22,893 nt of DNA. Source: a virus. Position numbers and translations under genes: made by a program. The notes beneath the pieces were generated by a model. That model saw nothing but the letters and a program-made list of their open reading frames with translations, searched no databases and was not told where the DNA came from. Position 1 is the first letter of the stretch. Each line of letters begins with the position of its first letter. Below, piece by piece: positions 1-11,170 of the stretch. The stretch spans positions 1-22,893 of the IMG/VR virus record IMGVR_UViG_3300028829_005160; one strand, given 5' to 3'.

Positions 1-192
1 TTTTTGATGATGCGTTAAAATTTCGTCAACAATCCATTTATGTGCTTCACTTTCCCAATACTCTGTTTCAATGATATCATGCGTTCTGTCCAAGAACTTT
101 TTATCATCAATTAAAGCACGAATTGTTTTACTTTGAAATGCAGTTCCAAACTTTTGTAAGGTATCTACATTATTATTATTAGTCTCCGTCAT
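1..192 (-). CDS. Replicative DnaB-like helicase (T4 gp41-like), N-terminal fragment
   Basis: This frame opens with ATG at 192 and runs off the left edge, giving 64 residues and no stop. The N-terminus is a low-complexity Asn run followed by a helical segment (FGTAFQSKTIRALIDDKKFL, then the region reading ESEAHKWIVDEIL). This matches the style of the N-terminal domain of phage DnaB/gp41 replicative helicases, where a short helical bundle contains a Y(F/W)ES-type motif. The ATPase domain that would prove it lies outside the window. The gene sits 57 bases downstream of the 5' nuclease gene, which fits a replication cluster. No clear Shine-Dalgarno precedes the ATG. A different helical N-terminal domain cannot be excluded. 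Confidence 0.55.
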   Translation of the reverse strand, partial: MTETNNNNVDTLQKFGTAFQSKTIRALIDDKKFLDRTHDIIETEYWESEAHKWIVDEILTHHQK

Positions 193-249
193 ATATAAGA
201 ATTAGATTATCAAATGATTGGAATCCAATCAAGACTTTTTTTAAAAAAA

Positions 250-1326
250 TTACGATTGTGAAGAAATCGCATAGTTATTCAGAATTGTCCATGTTTCCAT
301 CAACCAGTTGTGATGGTTGGGAAATGCAGCCCATAATTGGTCTTCGGCAAATTTTTTACTAAACTCAAATTTATTAAGAGTTGTAACAGGAGAATCAACA
401 TGATCAAATACTTTTGTTTGCATACTTGCAGGAAGAATAGAATCAATTAATTGCATCAAATCATAATTTCGTTTCAGCAAACTTTGATTATCTTCTTTAA
501 GAAAGTTTTTATACAAGGGCATCTCTTTTTGTTTTTTCTCTGAGATTTGTAATAAATCATTTATATTTAGTTTTTTGTCATTTGCAAATTCAGGAAATGC
601 AGTTTTGAGTTTCTTTTCACCCACACCTTTCATTCCATCTATATTATCACCACGGTCTCCGTCTATTGTTCTATACAATAAAAAATTACTTGGATGAATT
701 CCATATTCATGCAATACCTTCTCAGGAGTATAAACAGTTCGTTTAGTTGGACTATAAACAGTTACATCATCATCTACGAGTTGAAGAAAATCTTTGTCGG
801 TACTCATTATAGTGCACTTCTTACCGAGTCCACTAAAGTACGAACGAGCAAGTAATGCAATAACATCATCTGCTTCAACATTATCTAAACATAAAGTTGT
901 AACAGGAAGCATATTAAGATACTCAATGAGTTTAACGATTTGTTTTTTCATTGAGTTATCTTCTTCTCCCTGATCCATATCCAAACTCAATGCACGATTC
1001 ACACGAAACCGAACATTTTTCTTCATTTTGTAATCAGGAAATACTTTACGTCTTCGTGTTGAACCACCCTTACCATCAAATATGATAATACAGCGAGTTG
1101 GTTTACGCAAACGAATTGCGTGTCCTATGCTTTTTAGGAAACCTGTATAACCACCTATATGATCTCCGTTGTCATTTGTGGTTGGATACATACTCCAAAC
1201 ACGCATGAAAGTATTCATTCCATCTACTAAAAGAGCATCTGAATTTAAAGTTCTTTCTACTTCAAGTTCTGCTTTTTGTTCTGCGGAAAACTCTTCAAAT
1301 AAACTGAATATTTTGCTTTTACTCAT
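250..1326 (-). CDS. T4 RNase H-like 5'-3' exonuclease / flap endonuclease
   Basis: This 358-residue protein should remove RNA primers and 5' flaps from lagging-strand fragments, as T4 RNase H and the Pol I 5' nuclease domain do. The PIN/FEN acidic residues are visible in order: VDGMN (D35), FDG at 83-85 followed by the basic arch-like RRRK...DYK, EADD at 151-154, STDKD at 175-179 and GDRGDN at 223-228. The helix-hairpin-helix GMKGVGEKK follows at 231-239. The length is slightly above T4 RNase H (about 305). The start ATG overlaps the last 8 bases of recA (ATGAGTAA), so translation is probably coupled. Family assignment is firm; its partnership with the neighbouring ssDNA-binding protein is inferred from T4. 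Confidence 0.9.
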   Translation of the reverse strand: MSKSKIFSLFEEFSAEQKAELEVERTLNSDALLVDGMNTFMRVWSMYPTTNDNGDHIGGYTGFLKSIGHAIRLRKPTRCIIIFDGKGGSTRRRKVFPDYKMKKNVRFRVNRALSLDMDQGEEDNSMKKQIVKLIEYLNMLPVTTLCLDNVEADDVIALLARSYFSGLGKKCTIMSTDKDFLQLVDDDVTVYSPTKRTVYTPEKVLHEYGIHPSNFLLYRTIDGDRGDNIDGMKGVGEKKLKTAFPEFANDKKLNINDLLQISEKKQKEMPLYKNFLKEDNQSLLKRNYDLMQLIDSILPASMQTKVFDHVDSPVTTLNKFEFSKKFAEDQLWAAFPNHHNWLMETWTILNNYAISSQS

Positions 1327-2473
1327 CAGACACCGTTGCTAATTCTTGTTCAGCAATTGTATCGTTATCTTCAAACTCAACATCTTCGTCAATGACACTG
1401 TTTGCTGATTGATATTCCATGATAAGATTATCACAAATATGTGTATATAGTTCAGTTCTTAGGTCTTCATCTTTCAACAATTCAGGAAACTCCTTTGCCA
1501 TAAACTTATAGTCTTTTCCTTTGGAGTCAGTGAATGAATAATAAGCACCACCTTGTTTTAGAATTTTGTGAGTTTTTAAAGTTGTTATCCAACTTCCTAT
1601 ATCATCAATACCACGATTAAAATAAATTTCAAACGATGCTTTTCGTTGTGGGGGACCCATTCTGTTTTTTACAATGGTTGCTTCACATTTTCCACCGATG
1701 ACTTCTGTGGTTGCACCTTTTTTAATTTGACCCATACTTTTCAAACGAATACGAACACTTGCGTGAAACGCAATTGCTTTACCACCACTTGTTGTCCACG
1801 GATCACCAAACATAACTCCCATCTTTTGTCGAAGTTGATTAGTAAATACCAATGCAATTTTTTGTCTTCCAATTGTTGAAGTTAACTTACGCATTGCTTT
1901 ACTAATTAGAATTGCTTTGGTGGTTGCGTAACCATCCTTTGCATAATCTGCCGCCATCTCAATTTTAGTTGATGCAGCCGATACACTATCTGTTACAATA
2001 GTTACAAGTTTATCTTTGTTTGATTTACGTACAGTTGCTATAATATTATCAATCGTTGCAAATATATCTTCAACTGTATCAACATGAACATACAACAACT
2101 TGGTTGTATCAACACCAATAGCAGTTAAATATTCAATACTTACACTGGTCTCGGTATCAATTAATACCGCAACACCCCCTTTCTTTTGAGTTTCTGCTAG
2201 AATGTGTCCAGATACTAAACTTTTTCCACTTTGTTCTAGTCCAGTTAGTTCTGTGATTCGTCCAGTTGGAATCCCACCATTCGGGCGATTTGAAATTGCC
2301 AAATCAAGTAAACTACTACCTGTTGGAATCCAATCGGAAATTAAAGAAGGATCATCTCCTTCGTTTAAAAAGAATGCTACTTTACCTTCATCCTTATACG
2401 CAGAGTTTAGACTTTCTGCAAGTACAGATGCTAAATCTTCTGATTTTGTTTTATCTTCTTTTTTTCTTGCCAT
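1319..2473 (-). CDS. RecA/UvsX-like strand-exchange recombinase
   Basis: This is a recombinase of about 384 residues, expected to form filaments on ssDNA and drive ATP-dependent strand exchange during phage recombination and repair. Numbering from the MARKK start, it shows Walker A GLEQSGKS at about 78-85, Walker B LVTIVTDSVSA at about 156-166, and a loop-L2 region GVMFGDPWTTSGGKA close to bacterial RecA. The C-terminal 30 residues are strongly acidic, as in RecA. I chose ATG at 2473. The frame stays open to a GTG at 2515, but that start lies inside a perfect hairpin and adds a residue stretch unlike the family. No good Shine-Dalgarno is visible before 2473. It lies between the ssDNA-binding and 5' nuclease genes, a typical replication-recombination context. 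Confidence 0.94.
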   Translation of the reverse strand: MARKKEDKTKSEDLASVLAESLNSAYKDEGKVAFFLNEGDDPSLISDWIPTGSSLLDLAISNRPNGGIPTGRITELTGLEQSGKSLVSGHILAETQKKGGVAVLIDTETSVSIEYLTAIGVDTTKLLYVHVDTVEDIFATIDNIIATVRKSNKDKLVTIVTDSVSAASTKIEMAADYAKDGYATTKAILISKAMRKLTSTIGRQKIALVFTNQLRQKMGVMFGDPWTTSGGKAIAFHASVRIRLKSMGQIKKGATTEVIGGKCEATIVKNRMGPPQRKASFEIYFNRGIDDIGSWITTLKTHKILKQGGAYYSFTDSKGKDYKFMAKEFPELLKDEDLRTELYTHICDNLIMEYQSANSVIDEDVEFEDNDTIAEQELATVSDE

Positions 2474-2490
2474 AAATTTTAAATTGATAT

Positions 2491-2519
2491 GAGGGTGGTT
2501 GGATTTACCAACCACCCTC
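2491..2519 (-). terminator. Perfect 12-bp hairpin between ssDNA-binding gene and recA
   Basis: The arms GAGGGTGGTTGG (2491-2502) and CCAACCACCCTC (2508-2519) are perfectly complementary with a 5-base loop ATTTA. It lies between the stop of the ssDNA-binding gene (2528) and the recA ATG (2473). On the minus strand the stem is followed by ATATCAATTT, a poor U-tract. A better T-run (TTAGTTTTTT) follows it on the plus strand, where no gene is seen. Reasonable readings are a partial terminator or an RNA stability or processing element that lowers recA relative to the abundant ssDNA-binding protein. The structure is certain; its role is inferred. Confidence 0.6.
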
Positions 2520-2527
2520 TTAGTTTT

Positions 2528-3358
2528 TTAAGACTTAAACAACTCTTCAAAAGCAGCCTCTACATCTTCGGTGGAAGTTGCGTTTGGTTTGCTTTGTTCA
2601 GTAGTTGCACTAGCAACGGTTGGTTGCTTTACTTCACTTTCGGTTTTTTCAACTTTGACGGTTTCAGAGTCAACCGATTCTGCTGGTGGTGCATCTTCTT
2701 CAGACTCACCACTTACCCACTTTTCAAGAGCATCTTTCAAATCATCATAACCGAGTTCTTGATAAATCTCTGTGATTTCTGCTTGATTGTTGGCAACACC
2801 ATCTACGATATTCTTATTTTCGGAGATAGGTGATGTATTTGGTTTAACACGAATGTTAGTTTTTGGAAATGATCTTCCTGCTTCTTCTGCTGAAAGAAAC
2901 TCAATAGTGATGTCTCTTCCTTGTGTAGAATCAGTAATATCTCCATAATCGGGATCAGCAATAACACTCAATAGTTCTTGGTAAACTTCTTTACCAAAAC
3001 CCCAAAATCGTACACCTTCAGCTTCTTCTCCACGAACAAGAACAGGTACAAATGTACGCATCTTTGGCATTAACGAACGACCCATGCGATAATCATCTTT
3101 GTCACCACTACGAGTTAACTTTTCAGCAAACTCAACGATTGGATCAGGGCGACCAAACGACTTTGGTGATAAGTATGTTCTATTATTGATTCCATAATGA
3201 AAATACAACTCAATAAATGGATTATCGGGTTGATGCTTGTATGGTACAATACGAACCTGTTGCTTACCAGGTTGAGGTTTCCATTGATAGTTTTTGCGAT
3301 TATTTGTCTGAGACAAATTATTCAACTTTGCTTTTATTTTATCTAGGTCAATTGCCAT
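2528..3358 (-). CDS. gp32-like single-stranded DNA-binding protein
   Basis: This 276-residue protein probably coats ssDNA at the replication fork and loads recombination factors. The N-terminus carries a basic region (KIKAKLNNL...NNRKNYQWKP) leading into GKQQVRIVPYKHQ and FIELYFHYGI, the pattern I associate with gp32-like proteins of marine T4-type phages. The last 80 residues are Glu/Asp/Ser/Thr-rich and end with a short hydrophobic-acidic tip (EAAFEELF), like the SSB tails that recruit partner proteins. I do not see the Cys/His zinc ligands of T4 gp32. An AAGGA Shine-Dalgarno lies 7 bases before the ATG (3366-3370 on the plus strand), and a strong promoter precedes it. The context, upstream of recA and the 5' nuclease, supports the call. 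Confidence 0.8.
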   Translation of the reverse strand: MAIDLDKIKAKLNNLSQTNNRKNYQWKPQPGKQQVRIVPYKHQPDNPFIELYFHYGINNRTYLSPKSFGRPDPIVEFAEKLTRSGDKDDYRMGRSLMPKMRTFVPVLVRGEEAEGVRFWGFGKEVYQELLSVIADPDYGDITDSTQGRDITIEFLSAEEAGRSFPKTNIRVKPNTSPISENKNIVDGVANNQAEITEIYQELGYDDLKDALEKWVSGESEEDAPPAESVDSETVKVEKTESEVKQPTVASATTEQSKPNATSTEDVEAAFEELFKS

Positions 3359-3400
3359 TTTTTATTCCTTAATTTAGTATGTTTTATTATTATTCTTAAT

Positions 3401-3429
3401 ATAATACTATTCGTTTTGATATTCGTCAA
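3401..3429 (-). promoter_or_regulatory. Sigma70-like promoter upstream of ssDNA-binding gene
   Basis: On the minus strand, TTGACG (3424-3429) is separated by exactly 17 bases from TATTAT (3401-3406). Each box matches the bacterial sigma70 consensus at five of six positions. It sits in the 86-base gap before the ssDNA-binding gene, about 42 bases from its ATG. The spacer contains CAAAACGAA, also present in the next promoter upstream. A host-RNA-polymerase (early or middle) promoter is the natural reading. Confidence 0.7.
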
Positions 3430-3444
3430 TCAGAATTATATTAA

Positions 3445-3675
3445 TCAAGAAGATTTTCCGTCATTTTTAACGAAATTGTAAAAGTCAGAAGCAATTTCTA
3501 ATACTTCATGTGTAGTTGGAAGTGGAGGTATTTCAGGAGCAGAATTATCGTAATTAGCACGATTTTGGAGTTCTTCTTTTTCCATGTGCCATGCTTCCCA
3601 TACCATCTCTTTTGCATTTTTTAGCACTTCTAGTCGAATGCCGTAGGCATTTAAACTCTTTGATTCATTTGTCAT
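3445..3675 (-). CDS. Small protein of unknown function in replication cluster
   Basis: This 76-residue protein has no family I can name. It is mostly helical by composition: an N-terminal segment AYGIRLEVLKNAKEMVWEAW and a C-terminal THEVLEIASDFYNFVKN joined by a proline-rich linker (PEIPPLP). There are no cysteines, signal peptide or membrane segment. It is likely real because it is the first gene after a consensus promoter, fills the space before the ssDNA-binding gene, and has protein-like composition. A small partner of the replication proteins is possible, but only by position. Confidence 0.75.
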   Translation of the reverse strand: MTNESKSLNAYGIRLEVLKNAKEMVWEAWHMEKEELQNRANYDNSAPEIPPLPTTHEVLEIASDFYNFVKNDGKSS

Positions 3676-3725
3676 TTTTTAATTGTTATTTATTAATTAC
3701 ATTAACGAATTAATGTCTGTATATA

Positions 3726-3754
3726 AATATATCTTAGACTTCGTTTTGTGTCAA
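3726..3754 (-). promoter_or_regulatory. Sigma70-like promoter at head of replication module
   Basis: On the minus strand, a perfect TTGACA (3749-3754) is followed after exactly 17 bases by TATATT (3726-3731, five of six consensus matches). It starts immediately downstream of the methyltransferase stop (3758) and about 50 bases before the small 76-residue gene. It should drive the replication module separately from the upstream accessory and tail genes. The spacer begins with CAAAACGAA, repeated in the promoter of the ssDNA-binding gene. Confidence 0.78.
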
Positions 3755-3757
3755 TTT

Positions 3758-4573
3758 TTAAGTAGATTTTTGAAGATTTTTTTCAATTCTTTCGCATGAA
3801 ATTTCAACTGCTTTTTTGTTAATATCACATCCTAAATAATTGCGATTTAAAGAATTAGCAACATCAAGTGTTGTTCCACTTCCACAATAAAAATCTGCCA
3901 CCAAATCCCCTTCGTTGCTACTTGCTTTAATGATGCGTTCAAGTATCTTTGGATGTTTTTCTGAATAATAATCAGTTTGTTTTTTAACTTTTAATCCAGA
4001 TGGTATATCATCCCAAACATTTGTAGGTATCGTCCCAACTTTTAATTTTTCCTCCGTAATATTAGGACGGTCTTGTTTTTTACTAATTACAGATTTATAT
4101 GGAACACGGATATCTAAATCATTAAAAATGAAATTATCTGAGTTTGTGTACACAATTATATAATCATGTTTTTTTGCGAACTCTCGTTTTCCACGACCAC
4201 CTATATTAAATTTTACTACAATTTGATTTCTAAAATTTTCATAACCAAACACCATATCCATAATCACACGAATCCAATGAACAATTCGTAAATCCATTTG
4301 AAGATAGATAGTTCCATTGCTAGAAAGAACTCGTTTCATTTCGTGCAATCTAGGAATATAATGATTTTTAATTTTATCATACTCCGCAGGTAAATCTTTG
4401 TAATCTTTGAATGTCTTACCTGTTCCGTATAATATGTCGCAGTAAATTAAGTTTATGCTGTCAGACTTTAGTGAAGTGAGTAACTCTATGTTATCACAAC
4501 AATATACATTATTAGTTTGAAAGTTTTTTGAATTACGACATAAATTTGATTTATCAAAGTTTTCCACCTTCAA
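3758..4573 (-). CDS. Beta-class DNA methyltransferase (N6-adenine or N4-cytosine)
   Basis: This 271-residue enzyme should transfer a methyl group from S-adenosylmethionine to DNA bases. The motif order is beta-class: the catalytic motif comes first (YCDILYGTG, D46-Y49), then a target-recognition region at about 120-200, then EKHPKILERIIKASSNEGD (motif X-like) and the AdoMet motif FYCGSGTT at 228-235. The catalytic motif is DILY instead of the usual (D/N)PP(Y/F), but the following GTG resembles the NTG of the family. It overlaps spoVR by 20 bases and begins with TTG (4573) or GTG (4567); a TGA just upstream rules out a longer product. No restriction gene is adjacent, so an orphan anti-restriction or regulatory role is likely. 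Target base and site cannot be read from sequence. Confidence 0.85.
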   Translation of the reverse strand: MKVENFDKSNLCRNSKNFQTNNVYCCDNIELLTSLKSDSINLIYCDILYGTGKTFKDYKDLPAEYDKIKNHYIPRLHEMKRVLSSNGTIYLQMDLRIVHWIRVIMDMVFGYENFRNQIVVKFNIGGRGKREFAKKHDYIIVYTNSDNFIFNDLDIRVPYKSVISKKQDRPNITEEKLKVGTIPTNVWDDIPSGLKVKKQTDYYSEKHPKILERIIKASSNEGDLVADFYCGSGTTLDVANSLNRNYLGCDINKKAVEISCERIEKNLQKST

Positions 4574-6119
4574 ATCTTTTCATTTCTCCGTTGTTGTAAC
4601 GATAACGAACTTCAACTTCAATTGTTTCTTTATTTTCTCCGTAACCTTCTGTTTCTACATCGTATGTAAGAATATTAATTGGTTTCTTGATTATCTCATG
4701 CAGATATGCCATTGTACCCGTTGCGTATTTAATATCTAATGGTCTTCCGTCAAAGTCATGTCTTAGCAAAATTTCAGTATTTTTGTATTTCATATTTTCC
4801 ATATAAATTACAGGACGACCCATGTTAACATGACGTTCTACGAGTTTTGCTTTTATTTTTTTGTAGTCTTTACTAACAACAACATATTTGTTGGTTGATT
4901 TATCCAAAGCATATTCAAAATACTCATGTTTTTCACAAAACTCTTTTGTAAAAAATTCGTTTAAGAAAGTAACATCATTATACAATTCACGAACTTCATA
5001 TATTTTTTCACGACCTAAATTGAGATTTTTATTCCAATATCTTTTTTCATTTCCGTTATCGCAATTTTCATACTCTTTACCAAACTTACCTTTATTCCAA
5101 CGATCTTCAATATCACGTAACAATGTATTTCCGAGTTTATATGGATTGTTCATGTTGTATTTTCCACCCAAAACACCTGCGTGATGTTTAGCATAATCAA
5201 ATATTCCTTCGTCTCCTGCAAAATTACAAGTTGCCATAATATACGAATCCCAATAACTTGCCCAACCTTCATTAAGAACTTTTGTCATTCCCTGTGGACG
5301 ATAGTAAATAGATTCATCACGAATCATACTAAGAATATTTTGTTGCCAAGGTTCTAAACGACAATGGTTGATGATCATCAACATAATATCTCGTTCAGGA
5401 CGAAGAGGAAATTTGTTTTCTGCTAACTTTGTACGCTCTTCACGTTCACGTCTTTGTTTTTCAATATAATGTGCAGGATTAACATACTTTTGCATATATT
5501 CCTTTGTTTCCATACGAGAAACGTGTTCACGAGGTTGACGATCTTCAAAGTTAAATTTAGTTGCTTTCTTTAAACTACTTTCACGATAACAAAGTGATGG
5601 ATCAATTAAATCATCAATAGCCAGAGCTGCATTTAAAAAGTCTTTTACTTTCTTTCTTCCAAAACGATCCATATACATACGAATTTTATCACTATGATTT
5701 GCCATAACATTCATCATATTACGATTCGTGTGCTTGAACATAATGTTGTTTTTGAAAAAATCACTATGTGCAGTTGCGTGTGCAACAACGGTAAGATTAT
5801 CAACGATAGGATTGTTTCGTTGAAGGTACATATAAGTTGGATCGGTATTTACAACCATCTCATAAATCTTGCCCATACCAGAGTGATACTGATGATGCAA
5901 TTGCTCAAATTGTTGTCCGAAATTAAAGTGTGGATAACGAACAGGAAAACCACCATAAGCGGCAATCTCAACTATTTCATCTGCATCAAATTCTTCAATA
6001 CACAACGGATATGGATCAAGTCCATTATCGTAACACGCCTTTAAGCATTCAGGTATAAGAGCAGCCAACTCTGGACATACTCCTTCATTTAAACTATCTA
6101 CTTCCCATGCAATTCCCAT
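4554..6119 (-). CDS. SpoVR / YcgB family protein
   Basis: This 521-residue protein matches the SpoVR (B. subtilis, cortex formation) and YcgB (E. coli, about 510 residues) family over its whole length. Diagnostic stretches include AAYGGFPVRYPHFNFG (53-68), GKIYEMVVNT (83-92), AHATAHSDFFKNN (113-125), ERDIMLMIINH (242-252) and PQGMTKVLNEGWASYW (275-290). The biochemical role of the family is not settled; bacterial members are coexpressed with YeaG/PrkA and YeaH in stationary phase, starvation or sporulation. Here it follows yeaH by 3 bases and overlaps the methyltransferase gene, so one transcript is likely. It appears intact, with no frameshift. Confidence 0.95.
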   Translation of the reverse strand: MGIAWEVDSLNEGVCPELAALIPECLKACYDNGLDPYPLCIEEFDADEIVEIAAYGGFPVRYPHFNFGQQFEQLHHQYHSGMGKIYEMVVNTDPTYMYLQRNNPIVDNLTVVAHATAHSDFFKNNIMFKHTNRNMMNVMANHSDKIRMYMDRFGRKKVKDFLNAALAIDDLIDPSLCYRESSLKKATKFNFEDRQPREHVSRMETKEYMQKYVNPAHYIEKQRREREERTKLAENKFPLRPERDIMLMIINHCRLEPWQQNILSMIRDESIYYRPQGMTKVLNEGWASYWDSYIMATCNFAGDEGIFDYAKHHAGVLGGKYNMNNPYKLGNTLLRDIEDRWNKGKFGKEYENCDNGNEKRYWNKNLNLGREKIYEVRELYNDVTFLNEFFTKEFCEKHEYFEYALDKSTNKYVVVSKDYKKIKAKLVERHVNMGRPVIYMENMKYKNTEILLRHDFDGRPLDIKYATGTMAYLHEIIKKPINILTYDVETEGYGENKETIEVEVRYRYNNGEMKRFEGGKL

Positions 6120-6122
6120 AAC

Positions 6123-7277
6123 TTAAAAAGGTACTTCTTCGTCGGCAGGTGTTAATAATTTTTGTAGAGTTTTGAATACATCTGATGGGGAGTCCATTGA
6201 TGCAGTAACAATCGTTTTAGGATCAAGTTCACCACTTGATAATTTAGATTGAATGTGTGGTAAAAATGTTGCCCAACTTCTTACTGCCTTGACTTCAGTT
6301 ATACCAATTAAATTTGCATACTTTTGCATTGTTTTTAAATAATCTACACACAAATCATTATCAGAACCAAAATTTTCTCCGTCACTTAAATAGAACACAT
6401 AAATGTTCCATTCATTTAAAGGAAATGCTTTTTCAACGATGTCATTTACCAAATGAAAAGCACTACTAATTTGTGTTCCACCACCACTTTTATATTTGTA
6501 GAACTTTTCTTGATCTACTTCTTGTGCATGGTGATCGTGAACGATATATTTTACTTGTGTTTCTTGGTAAAATCTTTGTACCCAATTATCAAGATACCAA
6601 CACAACTCACGAATTAATGCTCGTTTTTCATCGTCCATACTTGCAGAAATATCTGATACAAAGAATATGGCTGCATTTGTATCAGGTACTTCTACCGAAC
6701 TCCAACTTCTGTATTCTTTATCATCTTTGATAGGATAAAAGTTGGATAAATCTTTTTCATCGTAATCACCTGTAGAAATTAATCGTTTAAAAGCATTTTT
6801 AAGAGTTTTTCTTTTATGCAATAAACTATTGTTACCCACTTTGGCAATACGATTCCATTTGATTTTTTCTTTTACCATTTCACCGTTTTCTTTGGGAAGT
6901 AGATTTGGAAGTTGGAGTTCTTCACCAATCATATCAAAATAAGCATCCATGCTAATTCCAACATCGATTTCGTGACCTTCTCCTTCTCCGTCTCCACCGT
7001 CACCCGGTTGACCACCTTGACCTTGACCTTGTGGTGGTCCCTCTCCTACTTCATCACCAACTTCTGCTTCTCCGTTACCAACTCCACTTCCATCGGAAGG
7101 TTGTCCGTAACGAAAACTTGGTAATTCAACATGAGGTACACGGACAACTACGAAGTCTTTTCCTCTTCGTGTTATTCGTTGACCACCCTTAATGTGCTTT
7201 TTGAGTTTTTCGTCAACATTACCTTTGACGATATCTCTGTATTCACCGTGGTCTTCTCTAATTCTGCGAGATGGCAT
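6123..7277 (-). CDS. YeaH / DUF444 family protein with von Willebrand A-like domain
   Basis: This 384-residue protein is the middle member of the PrkA-YeaH-SpoVR triad; E. coli YeaH has about 427. The basic N-terminus (MPSRRIREDHGEYRDIVKG) is typical for the family. Residues about 58-104 form a Gly/Asp/Glu/Gln-rich flexible linker. The C-terminal half is vWA-like: FFVSDISASMD at about 205-215 has the DxSxS metal-binding (MIDAS) motif, with SGGGT near 267 and SDGEN near 297 as further MIDAS-region candidates. In bacteria YeaH is tied to the kinase YeaG and is needed in some starvation responses; its biochemical role is poorly defined. It lies 20 bases after prkA and 3 bases before spoVR. No strong Shine-Dalgarno is visible. 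Confidence 0.95.
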   Translation of the reverse strand: MPSRRIREDHGEYRDIVKGNVDEKLKKHIKGGQRITRRGKDFVVVRVPHVELPSFRYGQPSDGSGVGNGEAEVGDEVGEGPPQGQGQGGQPGDGGDGEGEGHEIDVGISMDAYFDMIGEELQLPNLLPKENGEMVKEKIKWNRIAKVGNNSLLHKRKTLKNAFKRLISTGDYDEKDLSNFYPIKDDKEYRSWSSVEVPDTNAAIFFVSDISASMDDEKRALIRELCWYLDNWVQRFYQETQVKYIVHDHHAQEVDQEKFYKYKSGGGTQISSAFHLVNDIVEKAFPLNEWNIYVFYLSDGENFGSDNDLCVDYLKTMQKYANLIGITEVKAVRSWATFLPHIQSKLSSGELDPKTIVTASMDSPSDVFKTLQKLLTPADEEVPF

Positions 7278-7297
7278 AATGATGCTTTCGTTGACTA

Positions 7298-9397
7298 TTA
7301 ATCTTCGTCTTCGTCTGCATCACCTCTTGCAAAAATACTTCCAACATATGTAAGAACATCTGAAGCACTATCTTCATCGTATCCAAACGAAGTAATAAGA
7401 CGTTGCTTTAATGCGTCAATTTTTTCAAGAAGTTCTTTGTCAACAACAGTTGCAGTATCTTGTGCAAGAGCAGATAACTTGATGCTATCTTTGGTATCTT
7501 CAAACAACTTCTTTTCAAGTGCTTTGTATAACTGCTCATTAGAGTCGTATTTGAACTCTTTACCCTTAGCGGCAAGTCCACCCATGTAGTTCATAATTTC
7601 TCTACGGAAATCATCCTTCATGCCGTTTGAAATGCCAATTTTTTCTTCAATACTACGCATTAATTGCTCATTTGCAACTTCCTCTTTTCCAGTTACAAGA
7701 TTTGTAACTTTTTCATCTTGAATATAAGCAACGATATTATCAATATAGTTTGTACACGTTGCTTTTATCGCCTCTTCACTACTACTAAGTGCTTGTTGAA
7801 CTTCACGTTTAACAATTCTGTCGTATTCTTTTTCAACTGCTTCTAATCGTTCAAACATATTCTTTTTATTGTCTTCACTTTGAAATCCATTATAACTTTT
7901 AAGACCTTCACGGATTTGTGCAAATAACATAAATGGGTTTAAACTCTTTGCACCCATTCTTGGGTTTACGATTGCATTAGAAAACTGATTCTGAATAAAA
8001 CGAGCAGATACTCCACCATACAATCCTTCTTTTGGAGATTCTTCTTGCATTTCTTTTACGTGTTCGTCTGTGAATCCATGTACACTTTGACCATTGTAAA
8101 GTTTTGCTTTTTGAATAATACCCATGTCTTGCTTTGAACTTTCTTCTAAACGACTTACAACTGCGAACAATGCAGCCAAATATGTTGTATGTGGTGCAAT
8201 ATGCTTATTTACAGTGTTTTTGTTGTAGAAGTGATCATAAATCTTCTTTTCTTCGTCAATCTTGAGAAGATAAGGAATGTCAATTTTAATTGTTCTGTCG
8301 CGAAGTGCTTCCATGAATTTGTTGTTGGTTAATTTTTCAAATTCAGCATTATTTGTATGACCAAGAATAACTTCATCAATAGGCACTTGGTTGAAACGAC
8401 GTGGTTTGACACGATGTTCTTGTGTAGCACCCAACAAATCATATAGAAATTCAGTTTGAAGTTTGAGAATTTCTTGAAACTCTATAAGTCCACGATTTGA
8501 TACTAAAAATTCACCATCAAAGTCAAATGCACGAGGATCACTTTCACTTCCGTACTCTGCTAACTTGCGATAGTTAATATCACCTGTTAACTCGGTTGCA
8601 TCTTGTGACTTTTCGTCTTTTGGTTGGAATGTACCAATACCGACACGATTCTTTTCAGAAAGAGTAACACGACGTACTACAATGTGATCAAGCACTTTAC
8701 GATAATCCCCACCGTGCATTTCCATTAATTGATTGTAGTAAAATTCATTAACTGGATTCAGTGCACCATCTAATTTAAGTTTATAGTCATCATCACTACG
8801 ACTTGCATTTAGTTTTGAAATAATTTCACTACGAACATCATCTGGTAACAACTTCAGTGGTTCTTCATTCATCGGACATGGAACTAAAACTTCATTTCCG
8901 TCTTTATCAGATACCTTCCAACTGAAAGAATATAAAGCACCTTCTTCAGTTTGAGTATAATGTTCTAGTCCTTTTTTAAGAGCAGTAACAATGGTTGATT
9001 TACTACTTCCAACGGGACCATGCAAAAGAATAACACGACGTTCAGGACCATAGTGACGACTAGCACTTTTAAGAATGTCCATAAATTCCATTAAATTTTC
9101 TTCAAGACCATATATGGATATGTCACCAAGACCTTCAAAAAACTTATATTTAATGTGTTGACGTTTGCAGTATATAAACTCTTCTGTTCCGTGAGACATT
9201 ACCATATCGTAAAGTCTTTGGTAGGAATTTCTTGCGATTTGCGGAGTTTCTTCCAACATCTCAATATAATCCCAAAATGTACCTGTCCAATTTAGAGACT
9301 CATAGGTGCTCACCGCATCATCATTATCGGACCTAATCAAGGATTCGAGGGTGCTTGCTCTTTCCTTATTTTCTTTTTGTCGTTTTTTATTTTCCAT
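7298..9397 (-). CDS. prkA: PrkA / YeaG serine protein kinase (AAA+ ATPase)
   Basis: This protein of about 699 residues belongs to the PrkA/YeaG family (E. coli YeaG 644). The N-terminus has FEGLGDISIYGLEENLMEF, then Walker A GPVGSSKST at about 127-135 and the conserved FLVSNRGLIEFQEI and ATQEHRVKPRRF..PIDEVILGHTN regions. The PrkA C-terminal domain follows, ending in an acidic DADEDED tail. PrkA proteins are reported as serine kinases and AAA+ machines acting in starvation and sporulation. The frame has an ATG at 9403, but AAGG lies only 2 bases before it and 8 bases before the ATG at 9397, so I chose 9397. A TTGACT occurs just upstream without a convincing -10. It heads the three-gene triad. 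Confidence 0.96.
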   Translation of the reverse strand: MENKKRQKENKERASTLESLIRSDNDDAVSTYESLNWTGTFWDYIEMLEETPQIARNSYQRLYDMVMSHGTEEFIYCKRQHIKYKFFEGLGDISIYGLEENLMEFMDILKSASRHYGPERRVILLHGPVGSSKSTIVTALKKGLEHYTQTEEGALYSFSWKVSDKDGNEVLVPCPMNEEPLKLLPDDVRSEIISKLNASRSDDDYKLKLDGALNPVNEFYYNQLMEMHGGDYRKVLDHIVVRRVTLSEKNRVGIGTFQPKDEKSQDATELTGDINYRKLAEYGSESDPRAFDFDGEFLVSNRGLIEFQEILKLQTEFLYDLLGATQEHRVKPRRFNQVPIDEVILGHTNNAEFEKLTNNKFMEALRDRTIKIDIPYLLKIDEEKKIYDHFYNKNTVNKHIAPHTTYLAALFAVVSRLEESSKQDMGIIQKAKLYNGQSVHGFTDEHVKEMQEESPKEGLYGGVSARFIQNQFSNAIVNPRMGAKSLNPFMLFAQIREGLKSYNGFQSEDNKKNMFERLEAVEKEYDRIVKREVQQALSSSEEAIKATCTNYIDNIVAYIQDEKVTNLVTGKEEVANEQLMRSIEEKIGISNGMKDDFRREIMNYMGGLAAKGKEFKYDSNEQLYKALEKKLFEDTKDSIKLSALAQDTATVVDKELLEKIDALKQRLITSFGYDEDSASDVLTYVGSIFARGDADEDED

Positions 9398-9441
9398 AAC
9401 CATTACCTTATTTTATTTTTAATTAGTAGTCAACTTATTTC

Positions 9442-9837
9442 TCAAACTTTTTTAATATTAAACAGACGAGTGTTAACTTCTCTATAAGAATCTCCGTCAA
9501 CTAGCAGTATTTTGTTCCTATAAAAGTTCCAGTCAATAACAAAATTGTTATTAAGTACACCGTTATTTAATTTTCTTATCAATACGTTCAATGAGTTAAT
9601 TGTATATAATGTGTTGGAATCTTTTTTTCTATGTACACTTATTGTATTTTTGTAGAAATTGCTAGAGTTTAGAGTATCTTGATTTATGTTGTATGTCAAC
9701 ATTAAACTATTTAAATCATCTATATCTTGTAAAATAAAAATTTTATCAAAAACTATGTCGTAATACTTTTTTACTGCGTTTAATTCTGCATCATACGAAT
9801 GCATATCGGTGAATGTACAAAGTAGTTTAGTTCTCAT
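9442..9837 (-). CDS. Protein of unknown function (131 aa)
   Basis: I do not recognise this 131-residue protein. It begins MRTKLLCTFTDMHSYDAELN and alternates short hydrophobic strands (IVFDKIFIL, NFVIDWNFY, NKILLVDGDSY) with Asn/Lys-rich stretches, suggesting a small alpha/beta fold. There is no signal peptide or transmembrane segment. AAGG lies 9 bases before the ATG, a usable Shine-Dalgarno. It is placed 46 bases after the polymerase gene and 44 bases before prkA, so it probably shares the transcript. It is a real gene by spacing and ribosome site; function is unknown. Confidence 0.75.
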   Translation of the reverse strand: MRTKLLCTFTDMHSYDAELNAVKKYYDIVFDKIFILQDIDDLNSLMLTYNINQDTLNSSNFYKNTISVHRKKDSNTLYTINSLNVLIRKLNNGVLNNNFVIDWNFYRNKILLVDGDSYREVNTRLFNIKKV

Positions 9838-9883
9838 AAGATATAACCTTTTGTGTATAAATATCTTACCGTCATTCTAAAAT

Positions 9884-11170
9884 CTAAATTTGCTTCATGT
9901 CTCCGTATGTTTTTCCGATATATGTTCTAACAGGATATTCGTTATTTGATGTAATAATTGGTTGCAGTTCTTTAATAATTTCAAATTCACTTTTGTGCAT
10001 ATCAAATAAAAACGCATCGTATGTGTATAATACCATTCTCGATTTACGACTTTGCATAAACTCATTTATTTTCAAAATAACTTCGCAATTTTTTTCAGTT
10101 TCTGCTGACTGCAATAAATAATTGAATACTTTATATGAATTTATTTTATCACCAAAAAACATAGATGCAATTTTTCGTTTATAGTACCATGTTTCAACAT
10201 ATTGATTTTTTTGATAATAACTCCATATAGAATCTACATACTCAGAAATTGCTTTCATAAAAGGAACATTTTGTTTTACATCATCACTTATCCCACCATA
10301 AATTAAGTTAAAAGTCACTTTCTTGGAAAACTCATATTCTTCTTCAGTTAGTGTATCCTTTCCGTGATAATATTTTCCTAGATATTCGTGTAAGGACGAG
10401 TTGGGTAAATCATACTTTAAATAATTACCCAATAAACGCAGATGATAACTTTCATAATCTACCATCACCAACAACCCATCTTCTTTAAATCTGCTCGTGA
10501 AGCAATCACGTTGACCAGTCTTTTTATTAAGTGCAGCGAAATTAACATTTCCAAATGCATTACTTGGCCGTCCCGTTGGAGTCATCATATTATACTGACT
10601 ATACACTAAATTATTTTCATCTACTAAATTAGTATCACCCAAGTTAAAGTTTGAAACAAACAATCCATTTTTTTCTATTCCGTGTAATGCCGATGAAAAA
10701 TCTCGTTCATATTCAAGTAAGTTGGAATCTAATTTTAAGTTGTCAACGGAACTGCACACTTCCTTAAAATGCTTTAATAATATCATTATAGGAACTGATC
10801 TTAAATCTTTTAATCTGCTATGATTATATTCATTGTTTAATTCAGTTTTATTTGATAGATATGAACACACCAACGCATCGGTTGAATTTTCAATTGTGTT
10901 TACATGATATTGAATTTTTTTTCTATCAAATATTATTTTATTACCTAAAGTCTTGAATATCATGTTTAAACATTCCGATGGAATATTCATGGAATCGGGA
11001 TGATTAAATGAAATTACATAGAATTCCTTTTTAACATTAACAAACAACGCAAGTGGTTTATTCTCATGAGAATGTAAATTTGGATATGTGTAATACAAAT
11101 TCAAAATACTTGAATTGCAATCAAGCAACGAAAGAAGTTTTTTTGCTTCGTTGGGACTTTCTATAAACAT
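9884..11170 (-). CDS. Compact family A DNA polymerase, exonuclease-degenerate and thumb-less
   Basis: This 428-residue protein carries the family A palm and fingers. TPTGRPS at 197-203 corresponds to the TxTGRLS segment. Motif A is VDYESYHLRLLG with catalytic D238. Motif B is KKVTFNLIYGG with K283, F287 and Y291 at the Pol I K758/F762/Y766 spacing, although the R754 position is Tyr. Motif C is TYDAFLFD with D385; the usual HDE is YDA. Residues about 40-100 resemble the Pol I exonuclease fold (FDRKKI like YDRGIL), but the DxE pair is missing. IEKNGL (165-170) lies only about 30 residues before TGR, whereas Pol I has about 125 there, so the thumb appears absent. Catalytic aspartates remain, so activity is plausible. 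It sits outside the main replication module. Confidence 0.8.
   Translation of the reverse strand: MFIESPNEAKKLLSLLDCNSSILNLYYTYPNLHSHENKPLALFVNVKKEFYVISFNHPDSMNIPSECLNMIFKTLGNKIIFDRKKIQYHVNTIENSTDALVCSYLSNKTELNNEYNHSRLKDLRSVPIMILLKHFKEVCSSVDNLKLDSNLLEYERDFSSALHGIEKNGLFVSNFNLGDTNLVDENNLVYSQYNMMTPTGRPSNAFGNVNFAALNKKTGQRDCFTSRFKEDGLLVMVDYESYHLRLLGNYLKYDLPNSSLHEYLGKYYHGKDTLTEEEYEFSKKVTFNLIYGGISDDVKQNVPFMKAISEYVDSIWSYYQKNQYVETWYYKRKIASMFFGDKINSYKVFNYLLQSAETEKNCEVILKINEFMQSRKSRMVLYTYDAFLFDMHKSEFEIIKELQPIITSNNEYPVRTYIGKTYGDMKQI

Follow-up and report, generated by a model that had tools for sequence, protein, structure and literature searches.

A thumbless family A DNA polymerase homolog of the divPolA1 family, probably accessory, in an IMG/VR virus sequence

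Can a protein which carries the catalytic motifs of a family A DNA polymerase, and in which the thumb seems to be missing, be a genuine viral gene product, and what would such an enzyme do? The question is raised by a 428-amino acid ORF in IMG/VR virus record IMGVR_UViG_3300028829_005160, of which positions 1 to 22,893 (here called the window) were analyzed. The observation is correct, yet the family has already been named: divPolA1 was described in 2024 by Yutin et al. (Virol J 21:200; PMC11348598) in phage immuto and its relatives, 14 in all. According to the portions of that paper covered here its traits are a truncated thumb, an inactivated exonuclease, a catalytic palm which has been kept, and conserved replication genes downstream, and the genomes concerned also encode a regular PolA, B or C. 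The window protein is 29% identical to immuto gp001 over 389 amino acids (E = 8e-53; tblastn E = 4e-44) and, judged from its sequence, almost certainly belongs to divPolA1. In the literature which was searched, no publication other than the 2024 paper and the preprint of it uses the name; this search returned nothing on thumbless DNA polymerases and no biochemistry of any divPolA1 member.

Domain structure and active site

The ORF (Table 1) matches Pfam family PF00476 (DNA_pol_A) over residues 185–402 with an E value of 9.9e-9, which is above the gathering cut-off; it also matches the DNA polymerase group phrog_17 and, by phmmer, Klenow structures. The first-pass annotation had remarked on a link of about 30 residues at a place where Pol I has about 125, and had suggested that the thumb is absent; both the spacing and a predicted structure bear this out. 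The distance from the conserved Glu before the thumb to the Arg of the TGR motif is 35 residues in the window protein (E166 to R201) and 23–43 residues in 85 relatives, whereas the corresponding E. coli Pol I residues, E541 and R668, are separated by 127. An AlphaFold2 (AF2) model built on 51 sequences (pLDDT 93.4, pTM 0.91; a run with 16 sequences gave a pLDDT of 63.8) superposes on Bst Pol I, 406 of its 428 residues being aligned (Z ~28), and in this alignment of a model the exonuclease-like domain, palm and fingers are retained. The thumb helices are not: from residue 167 to residue 231 the model has no long helix. The helical thumb which in Pol I-type enzymes lies between the exonuclease and palm domains is therefore missing on both counts, and a substitute formed by another part of the same protein was looked for and is not seen in this confident model.

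The N-terminal domain had been described as having no DxE pair, and indeed Leu and Tyr align with D355 and E357 of the Klenow exo I motif. The exo III segment (Klenow Y497/D501) is missing altogether; at the position of Klenow D424 the window protein does have Asp, but this position is variable in the family (D/N/H). To judge from these residues the 3'-5' exonuclease is dead.

Palm and fingers, on the other hand, carry motifs A, B and C by the Pfam match and by structural and residue alignment. Both catalytic aspartates reported initially are present, D238 corresponding to Klenow D705 and D385 to D882, while K283, F287 and Y291 of motif B are the equivalents of K758, F762 and Y766; all five, together with Q354 and R201, are invariant in 85/85 relatives. 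Motif C does read YDA instead of HDE, and YDS in a quarter of the relatives. Two further positions deviate from Pol I. In Pol I, the Glu at Klenow position 710 (E710) keeps ribonucleotides out by steric hindrance and contributes to ternary complex formation (PMC9324360); this position is occupied by His (H243) in all 85 members, including ten whose motif A lies outside what the search pattern could select, and the position of Klenow R754 by Tyr in 80 of the 85. The full-length PolA of phage immuto keeps Glu and Arg, respectively, at these sites. We did not find this pattern in the text of the divPolA1 paper, as far as the portions covered here extend.

Table 1. Coordinates of the divPolA1 gene, its domains and its neighbours in the window
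Feature	Position	Strand	Evidence or remark
divPolA1 gene (thumbless, exonuclease-dead family A DNA polymerase, 428 aa)	9884..11170	-	PF00476, homology to immuto gp001, AF2 model
Degenerate 3'-5' exonuclease-like domain, residues 1-142	10745..11170	-	DxE lost, exo III segment missing
Short link in place of thumb region, residues 166-201	10568..10675	-	Spacing relative to Pol I; no long helix in AF2 model
Motif A, residues 234-245	10436..10471	-	Catalytic D238 and H243 (Klenow E710 position), both invariant
Motif B/O-helix, residues 279-292	10295..10336	-	K283, F287, Y291 kept, Y279 at Klenow R754; alignment with relatives and Klenow
Motif C, residues 382-390	10001..10027	-	YDA with catalytic D385; alignment with relatives and Klenow
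orf131, downstream companion of divPolA1, 131 aa	9442..9837	-	Invariant HR...T.N..N..I core
Clade-specific insertion between orf131 and SSB: PrkA, DUF444, SpoVR, N6/N4 DNA methyltransferase	3758..9403	-	Followed by orf76 (3445-3675)
gp32-like SSB	2528..3358	-	PF08804, E = 3.4e-12
UvsX/RecA recombinase	1319..2515	-	PF00154, phrog_97
5'-3' exonuclease (Pol I N-terminal domain family), separate gene	250..1326	-	PF02739, E = 7.3e-32
Presumed tail ORF, 1215 aa	11614-15261	-	No PHROG match, no credible Pfam match
Presumed tail ORF, 685 aa	15566-17623	-	No PHROG match, no credible Pfam match
Presumed tail ORF, 1048 aa	17731-20877	-	No PHROG match, no credible Pfam match
Presumed tail ORF, 650 aa	20883-22835	-	No PHROG match, no credible Pfam match

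A protein shorter than the known PolAs might result from a deletion in assembly or sequencing, or represent a decaying pseudogene, and the first-pass annotation had named longer homologs as the evidence that would betray the former. The homologs are equally short: full-length relatives of 400–459 amino acids occur in cultured phages and in independent metagenomes, the same architecture being found in Flavobacterium phage immuto, Microcystis phage Mel-JY01, the 484-kb sequence LR756508 and many IMG/VR contigs, and a profile scan of IMG/VR gave at least 596 matching loci. Pairwise dN/dS values of 0.07–0.13 indicate that the coding sequences are under purifying selection. Since the architecture is shared by cultured phages and by dozens of metagenome contigs of independent origin, and dN/dS is of the order of 0.1, an assembly deletion is excluded and the probability of an artefact or pseudogene of any kind is negligible.

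Gene order and a module boundary

The place of the gene, beside tail genes and the PrkA triad and not with the replication genes, had been considered odd. Its position next to tail genes stands; its separation from the replication genes does not, since in the relatives divPolA1 heads the replication block. The order across loci is baseplate genes, divPolA1, orf131, SSB, UvsX and 5'-3' exonuclease, with a DnaB-type helicase next in the annotated phages, and the window shows the downstream replication genes in this conserved order. Across the loci compared, the unit of PrkA (PF08298/PF06798 in the window), DUF444, SpoVR and methyltransferase is present only in the window's clade; gene order thus identifies the PrkA triad as an insertion specific to this clade, between the divPolA1 side and SSB. 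Adjacency within the block does not prove a common pathway.

The two sides of the locus differ in conservation. Within the window's clade amino acid identity is 78–98% from the exonuclease to PrkA and 62–89% in orf76, and with the more distant phages of the clade it is 42–73% in divPolA1 and about 28–60% in most tail genes. The long blastn match ends inside divPolA1, near 10,620–10,680 against the clade members L021, L060 and L057, and near 11,050 against L013. Because of this drop in identity and these end points, the sequence comparison places a module boundary through or beside the divPolA1 gene, at about 10,620–11,050, the better conserved side being 11–10,620. The apparently differing histories of the PrkA-to-exonuclease side and the divPolA1/tail side speak against tight co-evolution of divPolA1 with SSB, UvsX and the exonuclease.

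The closest companion of divPolA1 is orf131, which follows it in nearly all loci whose contig reaches far enough and is present in each of the 12 large divPolA1 records (87–484 kb) which were examined. Among 50,697 phage records (INPHARED) it was found in exactly the six which have a long divPolA1 match. No case of orf131 without divPolA1 was seen among contigs with enough flank that were searched whole; of the contigs so searched because divPolA1 was not nearby, each either holds it elsewhere or ends early. The orf131 product has no credible match in Pfam, PHROGs or the PDB sequences, and its identification with RegA was rejected for want of any similarity. This constant association was not found in the text of the divPolA1 paper insofar as it is covered here, and may show in its Fig. 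4. Some relatives have other genes between divPolA1 and orf131; in five of them (L160, L162, L163, L199 and L044) these are large ORFs, several of which share a W.YRV.(N/D/K)G.P motif near the N-terminus.

Other polymerases and the probable role of divPolA1

In the window the divPolA1 gene is the sole PolA match, and a PolB is encoded in two longer sequences of the same clade, L021 (161 kb) and L060 (152 kb). A search for a separate replicative polymerase elsewhere in the genome, which the first-pass annotation had recommended, was successful in 11 of the 12 large records: nine have a PolB, immuto a full PolA, and LR756508 PolB-like and PolIII-alpha matches. The latter record (W04; 484 kb) has the PolIII-alpha and split PolB-like matches at 47,415–48,068 and 260,623–266,900, besides its divPolA1. 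A T4 gp61-like primase (phrog_47) is encoded by ten of the 12, and the PF02739 5'-3' exonuclease by 11. Given the separate polymerases and primases, divPolA1 appears to be an accessory enzyme and probably not a primase; the argument that it must prime for lack of any other primase is rejected. Of the roles first suggested, that of an accessory enzyme of low processivity is reasonable in view of the absent thumb and the separate polymerase, and that of a primer-synthesis factor is weakened.

Since a polymerase without a thumb would have a poor hold on its duplex product and add few nucleotides per binding event, divPolA1 would be expected to be distributive. Its contact with DNA would depend on partners such as SSB, UvsX, the 5' exonuclease or orf131, and its most likely task would be gap filling or primer extension in lagging-strand maturation or recombination. 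We regard the case for such a short-patch role in replication or recombination as evenly balanced. As a Pol I-type 5'-3' exonuclease is encoded in the same block, the two activities of Pol I may reside on separate proteins, and divPolA1 and this exonuclease may jointly do the work of one Pol I divided between two genes. Polymerase activity itself is predicted from conserved residues, and E710 and R754, which Pol I uses in dNTP binding or selection, are replaced. On balance we lean towards the complete reading, namely an accessory, thumbless divPolA1 with an inactive exonuclease-like domain and a complete palm and fingers, serving a short-patch role and perhaps forming, with the exonuclease, a divided Pol I.

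The histidine at the steric gate suggests another role, in which divPolA1 is a ribonucleotide-tolerant polymerase or primer-synthesis enzyme for PolB or PolA, the loss of both thumb and Glu gate allowing RNA or mixed primers to be started or extended. The fixation of this residue in every member, and the retention of Glu in the full PolA of immuto, are in its favour. Histidine is bulky, however, and might keep rNTPs out all the same; the proteins listed as fold matches are DNA polymerases; and only two of the large relatives, possibly partial contigs, have no gp61-like primase. We consider this role unlikely. Translesion synthesis or damage bypass at stalled forks or UvsX D-loops is likewise improbable: an open active site, expected of a thumbless protein, the absence of proofreading and the linkage to UvsX and SSB would suit it, but no sequence feature of the window protein points to lesion bypass. 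The family A bypass enzymes Pol theta and Pol nu have a thumb as well as insertions.

A more speculative proposal, to which we attach little probability, joins divPolA1 and orf131 in a two-component polymerase. Here orf131 or another protein of the block would replace the thumb in trans, and the universal Glu-to-His exchange would confer a range of substrates not shared by other polymerases, for example in RNA primer extension or ribonucleotide insertion before hand-off to the replicative PolB, PolA or PolC. Quite doubtful, finally, is a non-catalytic polymerase fold serving as a DNA-binding or scaffold protein such as a replisome adaptor. Its attraction is that the residues at E710, R754, H881 and E883 are all replaced in a protein whose exonuclease domain is already dead; yet a scaffold would not need the two metal-binding Asp and the equivalents of Lys758, Phe762, Tyr766, Arg668 and Gln849, every one of them invariant, and in Tt72, a phage PolA that is active, Ser takes the place of E883 (PMC9324360).

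A thumbless family kept under strong selection in many phages beside a regular replicase is a test of the minimal right-hand fold, and prompts one to ask what serves in place of the thumb. Experiments have two direct starting points, the His which is fixed at the steric gate and the 131-amino acid companion which is constantly present.

Comparison with known polymerases

With the divPolA1 of immuto the window protein shares, as far as the published description covered here goes, the truncated thumb, the inactivated exonuclease, the palm motifs and the downstream replication genes, and probably, to judge from the PolB of L021 and L060, the status of second DNA polymerase beside a PolA, B or C; it differs in sequence (29% identity) and in the PrkA-DUF444-SpoVR-methyltransferase insertion of its clade. 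As in the large (Klenow) fragment of E. coli or Bst Pol I, there are an exonuclease-like domain, palm and fingers with the catalytic Asp residues, the O-helix Lys/Phe/Tyr and TGR, whereas the thumb is absent, the exonuclease dead, E710 changed to His, R754 to Tyr and HDE to YDA or YDS.

The divPolA2 of barbaviruses (Vibrio phage 1.063.O, AUR84708) is, according to the same portions of the paper, likewise an additional PolA-like protein which lacks a thumb and has ~430 amino acids, but its N-terminal domain and neighbourhood differ (PMC11348598), and no kinship with the window family is detectable by sequence (hhalign probability 0.3% against AUR84708). The nearest full-length PolAs by tblastn are those of the Herelleviridae, represented by Staphylococcus phage MR003, which have palm and fingers in common with the window protein at ~22–27% identity; the MR003 enzyme, in contrast, has ~1,070 amino acids and is that phage's only PolA match.
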